DNA from: Acidobacteriota bacterium
GTDB taxonomy: Bacteria > Acidobacteriota > Terriglobia > Bryobacterales > UBA6623
DNA: 44,999 nt
Assembly: GCA_027592785.1 (NCBI GenBank)
Contig: JAQCLD010000002.1
Span: 1-44,999, forward strand
Direction of reading: 5' to 3'
Shown: one piece after another, positions 10,868 through 33,973 of the stretch
Layout of the letters: every line of letters begins with the position of its first letter
How positions within the stretch are numbered: the stretch's first letter is position 1
The notes under the pieces: generated by a model
Databases searched by the model: none
Seen by the model: only the letters and a program-made list of their open reading frames with translations
What the model was told of the DNA's origin: nothing
Made by a program: the position numbers and the translations under genes

Positions 10868-13549
10868 ATGACGGCCACTCGGCCTTGGGGCAGGCTAGTT
10901 ACAATCTTGTTAAGCGGCGGCGAGGGCTCCGCTGATCTTTCGATCGTCCCGGCGGAGCGTTTTCCAGAGTACATGCCTGACTTGTCGAATTTGCACGTGC
11001 AAGGCTTGACCCGCCAAAACTCGACTTTCTTCGAAACGGGTGACGGCCTTGCGGCTGTCGCCAGCCGTTCTGAGTTGGTCGACGGGCTGGTGTCCGAGAG
11101 TTTTCGAAAGCGTTTCGGAGAAGCGACCGAAAATTTGGGAGTCTGCTTGCTGGCTGTCGGCGGCTATGGCCGATCGCAGCTGTTTCCGCAATCGGACGTC
11201 GATTTACTTTTCTTGTTCGCCGACGAAGCCGCGGCGAAGGCCGGTCGCGAGGCGCTGGCCGCAGTCGTCACCGAGCTGTGGGATGCGAAGTTAAGGGTTT
11301 CCCAGTCGGTTCGAACTCCGGCGGAGTGCTCCCGATTCGCGCCCGACAATAGCGAACTCCACATCAGTCTTCTGGATGCGCGGTACCTGGCGGGCGACCG
11401 AAACCTCTACCTCGATCTCACCGGGCGCCTCTTGCCCAAGTTTTTCCTGCGCGAACAGAAGAGTCTGATTCGCGCTCTGATCGACACCGCGCAGGACAGG
11501 CACCATGAGTACGGGCAGACGATCTATCATCTGGAACCGAACATAAAAGAGTCTCCGGGCGGCTTGCGGGACTTTCAACTGGCCTGCTGGTTGACGCAAC
11601 TCGGGTCGATGGAGCCGGATCGCGTGCCGCTCAGCGAAGAGAGCCTTCCCGGAGACTTCTCCGCGCAGGCCATGGAAGCGAAGGAGTTTCTGTTCGCGCT
11701 GCGGTGCTATTTGCACTATCTGTCTGGTCGCGACGATAACCGAGTCGATTTTGATCTGCAGGACGCCATTGCTGAGAAGGGGGCCGGCAAGGCATTCGCC
11801 GACAGGGCCCAGGCCTCCGACTGGATGAGGCAGTACTACCGGCACGTGCGCGGAATCAACCGCCTGGCGTTGCGCAGCATTGAGGAGCATGGCACGGCCC
11901 GCAACTCTTTGATGGAGATGCTCAGAAGCGGTCGCTCGAAGCTTTCGAATAGCGATTTTTCAGTGGCCAACGGTCGCGTATTTTTTCGCTATAGCCAGGC
12001 GCTTGAGGTTCGCCCGGAACTCGTCCTGGAGCTGTTCCGATTCGTCGCGCGGCATGGCATTCCGCTGGCCGCACGCACCGAGCGCATCGTCGAGCAGCAC
12101 TTGGACAGCGTACGGCGCTACTTTTGGTCGGGGGTCAAACTTTGGCCGGCATTGGCCGAGATTCTGCGCCAACCCGACGCCTATGAGGCTCTGACGGCAA
12201 TGCGCGAAACGGGCGCGCTCTATGCGTTGCTCCCGGAACTTGAAGCGATCGACTGCCTCGTGATTCGTGACTTTTACAATCGCTATACGGTTGATGAGCA
12301 CACGGTTCTAGCAATTCGCATGCTCAAACGGTTGTCGGGCGCTAAGGACAAGGCGACGGTCCACTTGGCCGAGTTGAGCACGGAGGTTCCGCGAGCGGAG
12401 TTGCTGTGCCTGGCGCTGCTGTTTCACGACGTGGGCAAGGCCGTGTTGCTTGAGGGCCATACCCCCATTAGTTTGGAGAAGGCCGCCAGCGCGATGCAGC
12501 GTATCGGTGTTGACCCTGAAGGCCAGGAGCTCGTCAGCTTCTTGATCGAGCATCACCTGACGATGGCTAATTTCATCACCAAGCGCGATATAGGCGACCC
12601 CGAGACCATCGAGGAGTTCGCCAACATCGTCGGCGCGGTCGAAAACCTTCGGGCGCTCACCTTGATCACCTATGCCGACACCGCGGCGATCAACCGCGGC
12701 GCGATGACCGCCTGGCGGCGGCAGCTGCTGTGGCAGTTCTACATCGCGACTCACAACCGGCTGACCGGGCACGTTGAAGATCGCCGCATTCACGTTGATG
12801 CTGAAGCGCCCGTGCTTGCCAAAGCGCCCGAGGAAGCACGGGCCGGCCTCAAGGACTTTTTGGAAGGCTTTCCCCAGCGCTATTTGCGGACGCACAGCGT
12901 CGATCAAATCCTGGCGCAATACGAACTAGCCAAAGAACTGGACAAGAAAGCGGCTTCGGTCACCATTCAGAAGAAGGATTCCGGTTACGAGATCATGCTG
13001 CTGACCTGGGATCGCCCGTTTTTGTTTGCCACCGTGTGTGCCGTCATGGCTGCCTTCGGACTCAATATCGAGCGAGCCGAAGCCTTCTCAAACGAGCATG
13101 GCATGGTGCTCGATGCGTTCATTGTCACGGTATCCGAACGCCGCGGCGGGGCAGAACTGGACGAGGGCGACCGCAAGCAGATCGTCCGTACCCTGCGGCG
13201 CGCGATATCCGGCAAAGAGGACATCCAAGAGCTACTGGCCCGCCGCGGTCTATCGATCGGCTCCAAGGGCCGCTTGCCGATCGAGCCGGAGGTCACTTAC
13301 GACAACGCGACATCGTCGCGCGCGACCATCTTCCACGTTTCCGCACAGGATAGAACCGGGCTGCTCTACGATTTGAGCAGCACTTTCTCTAAGAACGACT
13401 GTGATATTGAAGTGCTCCTGATTGAGACGCAGGGCCGTCGTGCCATCGACGCTTTTTACGTCGTGGGGCCTCAGGGCAAGCTCTCTGACGCCGCAAGCGA
13501 GGGCCTGATTGAAGAACTTAGGGGCGCTTGCAAGTATAAGGCCGCCTAA
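10868..13549 (+). CDS. glnD: PII uridylyltransferase/uridylyl-removing enzyme GlnD
   Basis: This bifunctional sensor uridylylates PII at low glutamine and removes UMP at high glutamine. Domains in the 893-residue frame are: nucleotidyltransferase with GGYGRSQLFPQSDVDLLFL near residues 98-116, the GlnD block SPGGLRDFQLACWL, an HD hydrolase domain with FHDVGK (His520, Asp521), and two C-terminal ACT domains starting near 707 and 819 that bind glutamine. The length matches E. coli GlnD (890). The start is uncertain. The first 35 residues are low in family character and contain a -10-like TACAAT (10900-10905), so ATG 10973 is a serious alternative. It follows glnB by 75 bases. Confidence 0.95.
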   Translation: MTATRPWGRLVTILLSGGEGSADLSIVPAERFPEYMPDLSNLHVQGLTRQNSTFFETGDGLAAVASRSELVDGLVSESFRKRFGEATENLGVCLLAVGGYGRSQLFPQSDVDLLFLFADEAAAKAGREALAAVVTELWDAKLRVSQSVRTPAECSRFAPDNSELHISLLDARYLAGDRNLYLDLTGRLLPKFFLREQKSLIRALIDTAQDRHHEYGQTIYHLEPNIKESPGGLRDFQLACWLTQLGSMEPDRVPLSEESLPGDFSAQAMEAKEFLFALRCYLHYLSGRDDNRVDFDLQDAIAEKGAGKAFADRAQASDWMRQYYRHVRGINRLALRSIEEHGTARNSLMEMLRSGRSKLSNSDFSVANGRVFFRYSQALEVRPELVLELFRFVARHGIPLAARTERIVEQHLDSVRRYFWSGVKLWPALAEILRQPDAYEALTAMRETGALYALLPELEAIDCLVIRDFYNRYTVDEHTVLAIRMLKRLSGAKDKATVHLAELSTEVPRAELLCLALLFHDVGKAVLLEGHTPISLEKAASAMQRIGVDPEGQELVSFLIEHHLTMANFITKRDIGDPETIEEFANIVGAVENLRALTLITYADTAAINRGAMTAWRRQLLWQFYIATHNRLTGHVEDRRIHVDAEAPVLAKAPEEARAGLKDFLEGFPQRYLRTHSVDQILAQYELAKELDKKAASVTIQKKDSGYEIMLLTWDRPFLFATVCAVMAAFGLNIERAEAFSNEHGMVLDAFIVTVSERRGGAELDEGDRKQIVRTLRRAISGKEDIQELLARRGLSIGSKGRLPIEPEVTYDNATSSRATIFHVSAQDRTGLLYDLSSTFSKNDCDIEVLLIETQGRRAIDAFYVVGPQGKLSDAASEGLIEELRGACKYKAA

Positions 13550-29872: not shown

Positions 29873-30948
29873 GACAACGCGCGAAGCTCGCGCCATAGCG
29901 CAAGAGACTCGGCACAGCGAATCAGCCCGGCAACGGTTTCATCGTTCAGCGGGATGCCCTCTTTCGCGTAGCGCCGTGCGGTGGAAGCTTCCAACTCGCC
30001 CGGCGCATAGACCTTGTCGCATCCCGGTGCTAGCCCGCTTTCGCGAATCTGCCGAATCACCTTGTCCACGCGTTGCCCGAACTCGACGACATCCGTAAAG
30101 GCCTCAACACTCATCGCCAGCAAGAACTGCCCATCGCGCCCGGCGAATGCTCCGTCGATCATATTGCCGGAGTCCGTACCATAGCTCGCCCCTGCCAGCG
30201 CGGTGGAAAGGACGCCCATGACCACCGCCAGCCCGACTCCCTTGTAATCGCCAATCGGCCGCAGCAACCCGTCGACTGCTGCCGCGGCGTCCGTAGTTGG
30301 GCTGCCTTGCGCGTCGAATGCCCAGCCTTCGGGCAGATCGAGACCCTTCTGTTGGTAGATGCGAATCTTACCGTGCGAAGACGCGCTGAAGGCCGCATCG
30401 ATGACGATCGGACCTTCCTCCCCCGCAGGTATCGCCACGGCCAACGGGTTGATTCCGACAATCTTGTCCGTGCCGCCCCAAGGCGCCATCGTTGGCAACG
30501 CGTTCGTCGTCGCCAGGCCAATCATGTTTTCTTCGAGCGCCATCATCGCGAAATAGGCCAGCGCTCCGCAGTGATTGCTGCCTCGCACGGCCGCAGCAGC
30601 GATGCCTGTCGTACGCGCCCTTTCGATGGCTCGCTTCATCGCCAACGCCGAGCCGATCTGCCCCATGCTGTTGCCGCCGTCGACGACGATAGCCCCAACG
30701 CGTTCGCTGGTCACCTGCGGTTCTCCCCGCGGGTCCACGCCCCCGGTTTGGAACTTTGCGACGTAGTCGGGAACACGCAGTACGCCGTGCGAGTGGCAGC
30801 CGCGCAAGTCGGCTACCACAAGCGTTTCTGTGAGCAGCGCGGCATCAGACGCCCGCATTGCGCATTCTTCGAAGATCCGTCCAACGAAGTCTTCGAGTTC
30901 TTGTCTTGCGAAGCGTCTTTCGCGCTCCGCTCCCGGGTAGCCAGCCAT
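29869..30948 (-). CDS. Malate/L-lactate dehydrogenase family (Ldh_2) oxidoreductase
   Basis: This is a 359-residue NAD(P)-dependent dehydrogenase of the Ldh_2 fold, whose members act on malate, L-lactate, ureidoglycolate or 2,3-diketo-L-gulonate. Family blocks are visible: DLRGCHSHGVLRVPDY with the conserved HSHG, VRGSNHCGALAYF with the catalytic His, TTNALPTMAPWGG and INPLAVAIP. The substrate cannot be decided. It is divergent from the serine operon, with 265 bases between the two genes that must hold its promoter, and tail-to-tail with the Nramp-like gene. Confidence 0.93.
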   Translation of the reverse strand: MAGYPGAERERRFARQELEDFVGRIFEECAMRASDAALLTETLVVADLRGCHSHGVLRVPDYVAKFQTGGVDPRGEPQVTSERVGAIVVDGGNSMGQIGSALAMKRAIERARTTGIAAAAVRGSNHCGALAYFAMMALEENMIGLATTNALPTMAPWGGTDKIVGINPLAVAIPAGEEGPIVIDAAFSASSHGKIRIYQQKGLDLPEGWAFDAQGSPTTDAAAAVDGLLRPIGDYKGVGLAVVMGVLSTALAGASYGTDSGNMIDGAFAGRDGQFLLAMSVEAFTDVVEFGQRVDKVIRQIRESGLAPGCDKVYAPGELEASTARRYAKEGIPLNDETVAGLIRCAESLALWRELRALS

Positions 30949-31058
30949 GATTAGTAAATTCCCTCGATGCAGGCCGAAATTGTAGCGCGCTGGCGCGATC
31001 TGCCTCCAGCTTTAGCTATGCTGGAATCAGGCGGGTCCTTCAGCGGCCGCCTCTTGCG

Positions 31059-31145
31059 ATGAACACCACTATGCGTCACCTGAGCTCTTGCCGTAGCTGC
31101 TCCAGCTGCGGGGGCGCGCGCTGTTCGTCGTGTTCGTGTTGTTGA
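31059..31145 (+). CDS. Candidate Ser/Cys/Gly-rich leader peptide of the serine operon
   Basis: This is a 28-residue reading frame from ATG 31059 (or ATG 31071) to TGA 31143-31145. The last 20 codons (31083-31142) contain 8 Ser, 7 Cys and 2 Gly, so 17 of 20 are serine-family amino acids; the peptide ends in Cys-Cys before the stop. Ser is written with AGC, TCT, TCC and TCG, and Cys with TGC and TGT, so a simple DNA repeat does not explain the bias. It lies 68 bases before the phosphoserine aminotransferase candidate and serA. Leader peptides rich in a pathway's product are classical sensors of charged tRNA. No Shine-Dalgarno sequence is seen; a -10-like TATGCT lies at 31017-31022. Confidence 0.6.
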   Translation: MNTTMRHLSSCRSCSSCGGARCSSCSCC

Positions 31146-31186
31146 AGCCGGTCGTTCCCGACTTGGTTTCGCTTCCGCCCCCGGCT
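31109..31186 (+). promoter_or_regulatory. Alternative RNA pairings behind the leader peptide (putative attenuator)
   Basis: Three pairings can be drawn. P1: 31109-31116 (CGGGGGCG, inside the leader) with 31176-31183 (CGCCCCCG), 8 bp perfect. P2: 31146-31151 (AGCCGG) with 31181-31186 (CCGGCT), 6 bp. P3: 31144-31154 with 31159-31170, 11 pairs including 2 G-U and one bulge, loop TTCC. P2 excludes both P1 and P3, while P1 and P3 are compatible. A ribosome paused on the Ser/Cys codons would cover the left arm of P1. No U-run follows, so control would be through translation or Rho and not by an intrinsic terminator. Confidence 0.45.
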
Positions 31187-31213
31187 CCCTAAAACATTGA
31201 GGTTCCCGCACTC

Positions 31214-32368
31214 ATGTATGTCCGTAAACTTCGTCTTTTGACCCCCGGCCCGACGCCGCTTCTCCCAGCCGCCGTGCGCGCCATGTCTGCGCCAGACATG
31301 CACCACCGCACCAAGGACTTTGTCGACGTTTACGTGAACGTCATCAAGGACCTGAAGTACCTCTACGGCAGCGACAACCAGGTTGCGCTGTTCGCTTCTT
31401 CCGGCTCGGGAGCCATGGAAGCCTCGGTCTCGAACCTGTTCAGCCCTGGCGAAAAAGTCATCGTCTGCCAGGCCGGTAAGTTCGGCGAGCGGTGGACGAA
31501 ACTCGCCAAGGCTTTCGGCCTCGAAGCCATCGTCATCGAAGAGCCCTACGGTTCAGTCGTTGAGCCCGAGCAAGTCGAGAAGGCGCTCAAAGAGAATCCC
31601 GACGTCAAAGGCGTCTTCGTGCAGGCCAGCGAGACTTCCACCGGAGTTGCGCACGACATCGAAGCCATGGGCAAGATCGTCGCCAAGACTGACGCGCTGT
31701 TCATCATCGACGCCATCACCGGCCTCGGCACCATGCCGCTCGACATCGAAGGCTGGGGCCTCGACGTGGTCATCGGCGGCTCACAGAAGGCCGTCATGAT
31801 TCCTCCGGGGCTTGCTTTCGCCTCCGTCAGCGCCAAGGCCTGGGAAAAAGAGAAGACGGCCAAGAACCGCTACTTCTACTTCAGCCTGAAGGCGCACGCC
31901 GAAGGCGGCCTCGACGGCAACTCGCCGTTCACGCCCGCGACCTCGCTGATGCTTGGCCTGGGTGCGGCGCTTGAATTCATCCGCGAAGTGGGCCGCGAAA
32001 ACCTCATCGAGAACGCTCAACTGCTCGCCAAAGCCAGCCGCGCCGCTGCCGGCGCTCTTGGCCTCGAACTCTTCGCCAAGAAGAACCCAGCCTCCTCGGT
32101 GACGGCCATCCGCTCCCCCGAGGGCATCGATTCGGGCAAGATCGTCAAGGGCTTCCGCGACGATTTCGGGGCCATCATCGCCAACGGACAAGGCACGATG
32201 AAGGGCCAAATCTTTCGCATCGCCCATCTGGGTTATTTCGATTTTCCGGACCTGTTTGGCACCTTTGCGGAATTGGAGTTGATCCTCGCTGGCCTGGGTC
32301 ACGATGTGACCTTCGGAACCGGCGTCGCTGCCGTGCAGAAGGTTTACGCCGAAGCCGCCAAGAAGTAG
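31214..32368 (+). CDS. Class V PLP aminotransferase, probable phosphoserine aminotransferase
   Basis: This is a 384-residue fold-type I aminotransferase of the serine-pyruvate/alanine-glyoxylate group. It has the N-terminal LLTPGPTPL block, FASSGSGAMEA for cofactor binding, FIIDAITGLGTMPLDIEGWG, and the Schiff-base Lys192 in GGSQKAVMIPPG. The serA gene follows at once, and the same pairing occurs in other bacteria and archaea lacking classical SerC. I therefore infer conversion of 3-phosphohydroxypyruvate to phosphoserine; serine-glyoxylate exchange is the main alternative. TGAGG lies 11 bases before the ATG. No serB-like phosphatase is in the window. Confidence 0.9.
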   Translation: MYVRKLRLLTPGPTPLLPAAVRAMSAPDMHHRTKDFVDVYVNVIKDLKYLYGSDNQVALFASSGSGAMEASVSNLFSPGEKVIVCQAGKFGERWTKLAKAFGLEAIVIEEPYGSVVEPEQVEKALKENPDVKGVFVQASETSTGVAHDIEAMGKIVAKTDALFIIDAITGLGTMPLDIEGWGLDVVIGGSQKAVMIPPGLAFASVSAKAWEKEKTAKNRYFYFSLKAHAEGGLDGNSPFTPATSLMLGLGAALEFIREVGRENLIENAQLLAKASRAAAGALGLELFAKKNPASSVTAIRSPEGIDSGKIVKGFRDDFGAIIANGQGTMKGQIFRIAHLGYFDFPDLFGTFAELELILAGLGHDVTFGTGVAAVQKVYAEAAKK

Positions 32369-32389: not shown

Positions 32390-33973
32390 ATGAATATCCT
32401 AGTCGCCGACGCCGTTTCTCCCGCCGCGATTGCGGTCCTTCAAGCTGAACCGAGCTTCAACGTCATCGTTTCGAATAAGGACGATTTCCGCAATCACCTA
32501 GCCGACGCTAACGCCATTCTGGTGCGCAGCGCCGTCACCGTCAGCGAAGACGTTCTCGATGCCGCGCCGAACCTCAAGGTCATCGGCCGCGCCGGCGTCG
32601 GCGTCGACAACGTAGACATCCCCGCAGCCACTGCCCGCGGCGTCGTCGTGATGAATACGCCCGGCGGCAACGCCATCGCTGTTGCAGAGCACACTATCGC
32701 CTTCATGCTGTCGCTGGCCCGCTCGATCCCGGCTGCCAGCGCTTCGACGAAGTCGGGCAAGTGGGAGAAGAAGAGGTTCCTCGGCAGCGAACTTTGCGAG
32801 AAGACGCTGGGCATCGTCGGCCTCGGAAACATCGGCATGCAGGTCGCCACGCGTGCGCGTCCTTTCGGCATGAAGATCCTCGCCTACGATCCCTACGTCG
32901 CTAGCGATCTTGCTAAAGACCGCGGCATCGAAATGGTGGAGCTCGACGAACTGTTTGCCTCCGCCGACTATATTTCCCTGCATGTCGCCTTGACCGATCA
33001 AACGCGCGGCATGATTAACAGCGAGTCGATCGCCAAAATGCAGGACGGCGTGCGCATCGTGAACTGCGCCCGCGGTGAACTCGTCAACTCTGCCGACCTG
33101 GAGAAGGCCCTCGCTTCGGGAAAAGTCGCCGGCGCCGCTCTGGACGTCTTCGAGACGGAGCCTCCAGGTGAATCGCCGCTCTTCCAACACGAAAACCTGC
33201 TGGCGACGCCACACATCGGCGGCTCCACCGCTGAGGCGCAGGAGAAAGTCGGCATCCGCATCTCCGAACAGGTCCGCGACTATCTGAAATCCGGCGTCGT
33301 GATGGGTGCGGTCAATATGCCGCCGGTTTCCGCCGCGCAGTACGGCCAACTGGCGCCCTATCTCCGCCTGGCTGAGAACCTCGGTTCCTTTGTGGCGCAA
33401 ATCGCCGACGGCCGCTTGATTCGCATCAAGCTGACCTATTCCGGCGACTTCGGCGAGACCAACTCCGCCTTGATCCGCAACGCTGCTCTAACCGGACTGC
33501 TCAATCGTTTCTTGGAGCAGAAAGCGAACCTGATCAACGCCTCCGGCGTCGCCAAGGATCGCGGCATCGGCGTCAGCGAAACGCGTCGTGGCCGCACGCA
33601 TTTCTCCGATTCGATCACGGTCATGATCGAAACCGAAAAGGGCAAGCGCCAGGCTCAAGGCGCCGTTTTCCCCGATGGTTCTCCGCGCCTCATCAGCATC
33701 GACGGCTTCTACATCGAGGCCCCGCTCAGGGGCGATCTGCTGTTCATGATGAACCACGACGTACCGGGCGTCATCGGACGAATCGGCGAAATCCTAGGCG
33801 GCAGCGGAGTCAATATCGCAGACTTTTCCCTCGGGCGTCTCGAAGAATCAGGCGATGGTCCAGCGACCGCCGTCGCTGTGATTCGCGTCGATCATAGGAT
33901 CCCCGACGACGCGGTCGAGACCCTTGCAGGTTTGGACGCGGTACAGGTCGCCAGGACTGTGCATCTCGGCTAA
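32390..33973 (+). CDS. serA: D-3-phosphoglycerate dehydrogenase SerA
   Basis: This is the first enzyme of the phosphorylated serine pathway, oxidising 3-phosphoglycerate with NAD. It is 527 residues from ATG 32390 and belongs to the long type with a dehydrogenase core, an intervening domain (about 315-445) and a C-terminal ACT domain (about 452-527). Seen motifs are GLGNIGMQVATRARPFGMKI for NAD, catalytic Arg in NCARGELV, Glu in FETEPPGE and His in TPHIGGSTAEAQEKVG. The ACT block NHDVPGVIGRIGEIL is where serine feedback usually binds. A TTG 9 bases upstream is a less likely start. It follows the aminotransferase by 21 bases and would share the leader at 31059. Confidence 0.96.
   Translation: MNILVADAVSPAAIAVLQAEPSFNVIVSNKDDFRNHLADANAILVRSAVTVSEDVLDAAPNLKVIGRAGVGVDNVDIPAATARGVVVMNTPGGNAIAVAEHTIAFMLSLARSIPAASASTKSGKWEKKRFLGSELCEKTLGIVGLGNIGMQVATRARPFGMKILAYDPYVASDLAKDRGIEMVELDELFASADYISLHVALTDQTRGMINSESIAKMQDGVRIVNCARGELVNSADLEKALASGKVAGAALDVFETEPPGESPLFQHENLLATPHIGGSTAEAQEKVGIRISEQVRDYLKSGVVMGAVNMPPVSAAQYGQLAPYLRLAENLGSFVAQIADGRLIRIKLTYSGDFGETNSALIRNAALTGLLNRFLEQKANLINASGVAKDRGIGVSETRRGRTHFSDSITVMIETEKGKRQAQGAVFPDGSPRLISIDGFYIEAPLRGDLLFMMNHDVPGVIGRIGEILGGSGVNIADFSLGRLEESGDGPATAVAVIRVDHRIPDDAVETLAGLDAVQVARTVHLG

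Follow-up and report, generated by a model that had tools for sequence, protein, structure and literature searches.

Between a divergent dehydrogenase gene and an aminotransferase-serA operon of an acidobacterium lies a 28-codon frame rich in serine and cysteine codons, and the question raised by this locus is whether the frame is a leader peptide through which the ribosome senses the supply of charged tRNA and sets the expression of the serine biosynthesis genes behind it. We analysed the frame within a stretch of 44,999 nucleotides (contig JAQCLD010000002.1, positions 1 to 44,999; hereafter the window), together with related upstream regions and further parts of the same genome. In our assessment the frame is a predicted translated Ser/Cys leader peptide that would control the operon by sensing charged Ser- and Cys-tRNA, a reading to which we assign a probability of roughly 0.7. 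Its base in the sequence is the frame itself, the Ser/Cys bias, a matching frame in the nearest relative, and the leader-type frames that stand ahead of cysE and of hisI-hisD-hisC.

A serine- and cysteine-rich frame precedes the aminotransferase-serA operon

The frame, MNTTMRHLSSCRSCSSCGGARCSSCSCC-stop, runs on the plus strand from an ATG to a TGA at positions 31059..31145, encodes 28 amino acids and ends Cys-Cys-stop. Reading it confirmed the composition given in the original prediction, as the Ser/Cys codon tract that makes up its last 20 codons (31083..31142, plus strand) holds 8 Ser, 7 Cys and 2 Gly. The claim that the bias lies at the protein level also holds: both serine codon families are used (AGC three times, TCG three times, TCT and TCC once each), cysteine is written as four TGT and three TGC codons, and the two other frames of the same DNA contain no more than one Ser and one Cys. 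No Shine-Dalgarno sequence was apparent by eye ahead of the leader ATG.

Profile searches identified the neighbouring genes as they had first been described. A malate/lactate-type dehydrogenase gene (Ldh_2, PF02615; 29869-30948) is divergent from the operon, which comprises, on the plus strand, a class V aminotransferase gene (31214..32368; Pfam PF00266, with BhcA as the best NCBIfam match, under its cut-off) and serA, encoding a phosphoglycerate dehydrogenase with an ACT domain (32390..33973; TIGR01327 at 610.6 bits for a cut-off of 454, and Pfam). The aminotransferase gene is preceded by a Shine-Dalgarno-like TTGAGG (31197..31202, plus strand). Its product is probably the phosphoserine aminotransferase of this organism, because it is the sole match of the serC_1 model in the window's genome, a weak one that scores 34.7 bits where the cut-off is 443.6. 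In the nearest relative the same model gives two sub-threshold matches, the better of which is that genome's own copy of this aminotransferase. No serC_1 match above the cut-off was found in either genome, and with the window's genome at 93.7% completeness the missing serC is not certain. Outside the acidobacteria, the best matches of the aminotransferase encoded at 31214-32368 come mostly from Nitrospirota at 45-50% identity (L062-L112, within the best 80 of 224 loci); the enzyme is a candidate alternative phosphoserine aminotransferase.

The composition of the frame stands out from its surroundings. Thirteen Ser and Cys codons among the last 18 of a short frame were reached in 0 of 20,000 dinucleotide shuffles of positions 30954-31225, and seven Cys codons in 1 of 20,000, with 8 Ser+Cys in the runner-up among the window's 745 short frames (10-60 codons, both strands). 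Could the frame nevertheless be a low-complexity, GC-rich stretch that reads Ser/Cys by chance? Runs of TCG and TGT do contribute to the count. In a set of 9,466 short frames from all loci, which took in coding regions, 13 Ser+Cys are found in one further frame, a Ser run in L224, and three other frames combine at least 9 Ser+Cys with at least 4 Cys. The shuffles argue against chance, as do the comparison with relatives and the survey of the same genome given below.

A predicted promoter element, GCTATGCT (31015..31022, plus strand), with a -10 sequence TATGCT at 31017-31022, belongs to a pattern shared within the family. This pattern, G[CA]TAnn[CA]T, picked by eye from the same sequences in which it was counted and without a shuffle control, precedes the operon in 14 of the family's 16 upstream regions, the exceptions being L013 and L014, and in 12 of those 14 it is placed 148-199 nt before the gene. 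A scan for the sigma-70 consensus ahead of the operon returned no site. The element suggests that transcription would start near 31029, upstream of the leader frame and about 30 nt before its ATG.

The frame is kept in the nearest relative

The nearest relative (G005; locus L033, apparently record WGMB01000001.1) has an aminotransferase 80% identical to that of the window. In the same place it carries a 29-codon frame, MSDFPSATSFDTNACWLWRSSSCASSPCC-stop (L033:2856-2945), which contains 8 Ser, 4 Cys and no Gly and ends SSSCASSPCC-stop; its Ser+Cys content was matched in 7 and its Cys content in 29 of 20,000 shuffles. The two leaders are one codon apart in length. In each of two alignments their start codons coincide; the stop codons do so in one and are one codon off in the other. 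The peptides agree in 7 of 29 alignment columns. Both have Cys codons right up to the stop (CSSCSCC-stop in the window, CASSPCC-stop in G005), as in mycobacterial polycysteine attenuators. Since the gene upstream of the operon in G005 reads as a different protein from the window's, the frame stays with the operon. Glycine, which the original prediction had counted among the sensed residues, is not supported as one, since the relative's leader has none.

This comparison also bears on the possibility that the frame encodes a functional small protein, metal-binding or the precursor of a modified peptide, which merely happens to be located before the operon. Such a product could well be Cys-rich and 28 amino acids long, and the Ser/Cys-rich tail is one that we take to resemble the cores of azole peptides. 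However, only the composition and the CC ending are conserved with G005, no NCBIfam or Pfam family was found for the peptide, and a Pfam scan of 10 neighbouring proteins, one of them without a family, revealed no peptide-modifying enzyme, so that we consider this explanation very improbable.

The wider comparison drew on upstream regions from 84 of 191 genomes of the order with a match, plus the best 80 of 224 relative loci. After removal of duplicates it comprised 146 distinct regions, namely 16 from the window's family, 79 from other relatives in the order (for some of which the order label rests on the record title only) and 51 from Nitrospirota and others. Ranked by Ser+Cys content, the window comes first (13 of 18 codons) and G005 second (9 of 18), with all others at 7 or fewer; that the closest relative should be the next most Ser/Cys-rich among 145 other regions speaks against chance. 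The leader frame is absent from 14 of the 16 family regions and from the 130 more distant regions examined, a distribution that speaks for chance, and the Ser/Cys codon bias is kept in one of the 15 other family regions, that of the nearest relative. Among the regions examined, the predicted leader is thus confined to two genera. The original prediction had named homologous upstream regions lacking the frame or its bias as grounds for refutation; half of this came true, because 14 of 16 family regions and 130 distant ones lack the frame, and the nearest relative keeps the Ser/Cys bias.

A search of the window's genome and G005 for a C-x-C-C-stop pattern yielded a sole similar pair (L153 and L158), which we attribute to chance because both lie inside long coding frames, in another frame (by eye an ABC-type permease). 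A separate observation concerns g6, another genus of the family, where 6 of 10 regions (L003, L006, L008, L011, L012 and L015) open a GTG frame after the promoter-like element. By eye, this frame starts within about 6 nt of the element and about 150-185 nt before the aminotransferase, has a common stop after SS in four of the six regions and is not Cys-rich. Some g6 regions also have inverted repeats after the element. As judged by eye, this arrangement is possibly another kind of 5' control.

Companion leader-type frames in the same genome

We surveyed 1.89 Mb of the window's genome (about 42%), with 1640 genes from a simple codon-usage caller, for ATG frames of 7-45 codons directly upstream of genes, and applied to the 676 frames obtained a rule of at least 4 of a residue and at least 20%. 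Two frames pass for Cys, the window's leader and MCIQFCCACSKPTP before cysE, and one passes for His, MLLNAHHGLHHALS before hisI-hisD-hisC. When the same rule was extended to eleven further residues, no frame passed for Trp, Phe, Tyr, Ile, Lys, Asn or Met; five frames passed for Thr, two for Asp and one each for Gln and Glu, counted regardless of the downstream gene. The survey was not fully blind for cysE, since some stretches had been chosen for Cys/Ser genes or earlier matches, and the cysE leader was known beforehand; the His match came unasked.

By single-residue binomial p across 13,520 tests (676 frames by 20 residues), the window's leader ranks first for Cys (p = 1.4e-5, the lowest of all), the His frame fourth and the cysE frame about ninth. 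None of these values survives correction for all 13,520 tests, which leaves room for chance. Against it, the same genome holds a Cys-rich frame before cysE and a His-rich frame before a his operon, and with the shuffles and the rank of the nearest relative also in view we judge a chance origin of the serA frame to be quite unlikely.

The cysE frame lies on the minus strand at L319:3793-3837 (contig C81), 86 nt before a cysE identified by TIGR01172. By eye it has a promoter-like site TTGACT-17-TAGCAT, and a hairpin is predicted around its stop codon, with 5 of 1000 shuffles folding as well. Its Cys tract, TGCGCCT, is complementary to the cysE ribosome site AGGCGCA, a duplex also found in 133 of 2000 shuffles. 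In simulations the cysE Shine-Dalgarno region is 0.08 unpaired when the RNA is free, 0.25-0.48 with a ribosome on codons 6-10 and 0.30 with a ribosome at the stop codon. Behind the His-rich frame (L324:7312-7356, contig C145), identified in the survey, come CCCGC...GCGGG and a run of six T, which together make a textbook intrinsic terminator.

Across 42 of 43 PALP, cysS, SHMT and Cys/Met-PLP loci of the two genomes (the weak PALP match L224 was excluded), no leader frame with at least 9 Ser+Cys or at least 4 Cys was found, the two serA leaders excepted, by a score that favoured long Ser-rich frames; L218 and L253 reach 8 Ser+Cys, mostly Ser. A screen of six cysE, serS and rho loci missed the cysE leader of the window's genome, which was found by reading the region. 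The frame that precedes cysE in G005, MAFACGDSSCKQTSGCCLGKAHPSGLC, was discarded on visual inspection, as it overlaps the start of a divergent gene and lies above a likely promoter. Finally, a Cys-rich frame, MKIATIALLLMSALGVVGYAADAACCDGTQCCTGTSCCRR, was noted before another gene in L350 (minus strand, about 12036-12158 on the reverse complement); it has a signal-peptide-like start and resembles a small secreted protein rather than a leader.

Taken together, these frames raise the prospect of an acidobacterial ribosome-directed regulon, in which the serA operon would be gated by a Ser/Cys leader and cysE by a Cys leader, with a classical His leader alongside. This broader proposal is tentative, and we rate its odds at somewhat under even. 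Were it true, one leader would read a pathway product (Ser) plus the amino acid made from it (Cys), with cysE as the first committed step to cysteine, and a single acidobacterium would offer three concrete, testable amino-acid leaders.

RNA structure downstream of the leader

We then considered how a ribosome on the leader might influence the operon. A hairpin whose 5' arm starts from the leader stop codon is predicted at 31143..31171 (plus strand; 12 pairs, a 4-nt loop and one bulge), with 21 of 1000 shuffles folding equally well. Its G005 counterpart (L033:2938-2967) covers the Cys-Cys-stop, and here 0 of 1000 shuffles fold equally well. Beyond the stop hairpin, two-sequence RNA alignments produced no convincing shared fold.

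These structures bring up an alternative in which the frame is incidental to a conserved non-coding element, of RNA or DNA, made of TCG/TGT-rich repeats and hairpins, the RNA being read by a protein or ligand. The stop-codon hairpin predicted in both genomes is compatible with such an element, as is the 5' region of G005, which as a whole folds unusually well (z -3.46, 1 of 200 shuffles). The 5' region of the window, on the other hand, folds no better than shuffles (z -0.72), and no Rfam family matched positions 30900-31400 up to E=1, the serC RNA element, T-box and glycine riboswitch included. A bias that appears in a single reading frame, draws on the two Ser codon families alike and matches the pathway also speaks against a non-coding element, as do a start, an ending and a length, to within one codon, that are kept between genera. 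We therefore regard this alternative as unlikely and retain the translated Ser/Cys leader as the preferred reading.

As for the output, no intrinsic terminator was found between leader and aminotransferase, where the longest T run is 3; the one terminator-like match of the terminator scan falls inside the leader frame, with none downstream. The RNA after the leader is C-rich and G-poor (31146..31213, plus strand; 27 C, 15 G), a possible Rho entry region, and has a parallel in G005 (22 C versus 9 G), and Rho is encoded in both genomes. The stretch in the window is unspecific, however, because the C excess runs on into the gene start. Release of the Shine-Dalgarno was not seen at the serA operon in simulated stalls: in the window the Shine-Dalgarno region of the gene is 0.20-0.26 unpaired with the ribosome at every codon, compared with 0.21 when free, and in G005 it becomes less accessible at codons 22-26. 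A duplex between the tract and the ribosome site was equalled by 207 of 2000 shuffles for the window and 330 of 2000 for G005. The sensing half of the proposal is better supported than the output half, whether by Rho, hairpin or translation coupling, which is the weak part.

A proposed mechanism of Ser/Cys-dependent control

On the basis of these predictions, we can sketch how the Ser/Cys leader might work. Transcription would begin from the conserved element near 31020 and the leader frame would be translated. If charged Ser- or Cys-tRNA were scarce, the ribosome would pause in the Ser/Cys tract, and a ribosome on the last codons would prevent the stop-codon hairpin from closing and shield the first part of the C-rich RNA. 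With both tRNAs plentiful, the ribosome would come off on reaching the stop codon, letting the hairpin form and leaving the C-rich RNA bare; the transcript would then be terminated early, Rho being the most likely agent. A shortage of serine or cysteine would in this way lead to more serine production. The original prediction of a ribosome-based sensor of serine-family tRNA charging is partly supported, without its glycine part, and in its favour are the leader-type frame, the Ser/Cys bias in G005, the promoter-like element and the frames before cysE and the his operon.

Comparison with known systems

A short frame rich in codons for pathway amino acids upstream of a biosynthetic operon is one feature of leader-peptide attenuators in the broad sense, and the serA operon has such a frame. 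Mycobacterial polycysteine leaders are typically leaderless, whereas the ATG of the window's leader would lie about 30 nt inside the predicted transcript. In the mycobacterial attenuators, whose mechanism was reportedly addressed by Canestrari et al. in 2020, a ribosome sitting on the Cys tract makes the gene's ribosome site accessible; stall simulations for the window and G005 showed no such effect. The thr and ilv attenuators of E. coli read several amino acids in one leader (Thr/Ile and Ile/Val/Leu, respectively) and have intrinsic terminators. The window's leader would resemble them in reading more than one amino acid and differs from them in having no intrinsic terminator; the U-run terminator of the classical trp/his type is absent at the serA operon and present behind the his leader of the same genome.

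RNA-level control of serine synthesis is known in other forms. A T-box reads uncharged tRNA directly. The serine T-box of Paenibacillus polymyxa, as presented in the available part of PMC8002221, is similar to the present case in acting on serine synthesis at the RNA level; the window's region has no Rfam match. The serC RNA element of alpha-proteobacteria (RF00517) has two hairpins, the second of which is believed to mask the ribosome site, and precedes serC-serA, with no leader peptide described in the accessible portion of PMC1273637. It likewise places RNA control at a transaminase-serA operon; the differences are the leader peptide proposed here and the lack of an Rfam match.

Closer in kind are the polycysteine leader frames that, according to the accessible text of PMC1262725, precede cys operons of mycobacteria and P. 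acnes and cbs of B. longum. These actinobacterial Cys leaders are without evident terminators, and Rho has been suggested (same part of PMC1262725). In common with them, the window's leader has Cys codons near the stop, stands before an amino-acid operon and lacks an evident terminator; unlike them, it would also read Ser, precedes a serine-synthesis operon and belongs to an acidobacterium. The uORFC-8-2 before cysS of Rhodobacterales contains two tandem Cys codons and a stem that includes them, as far as described in the available part of PMC8632094. It shares with the leader described here a short upstream frame with tandem Cys codons and a stem with Cys codons. It differs in having a U-run terminator at its end and a tRNA synthetase gene behind it (same source).

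Going by the accessible part of PMC2965389, a survey of 2010 had a function for almost none of its predicted acidobacterial attenuators. Among the literature matches listed, with subscription papers mostly outside their coverage, no leader peptide for serA is described, in line with the initial statement that no serA leader of a Ser/Gly/Cys type was known; the same matches list none for cysE, the gene content of the 'cys operons' of PMC1262725 aside. Leader-peptide attenuation as such is already known. New here would be the predicted Ser/Cys leader at serA, since no such leader is among the matches listed, while Cys leaders are known from elsewhere.
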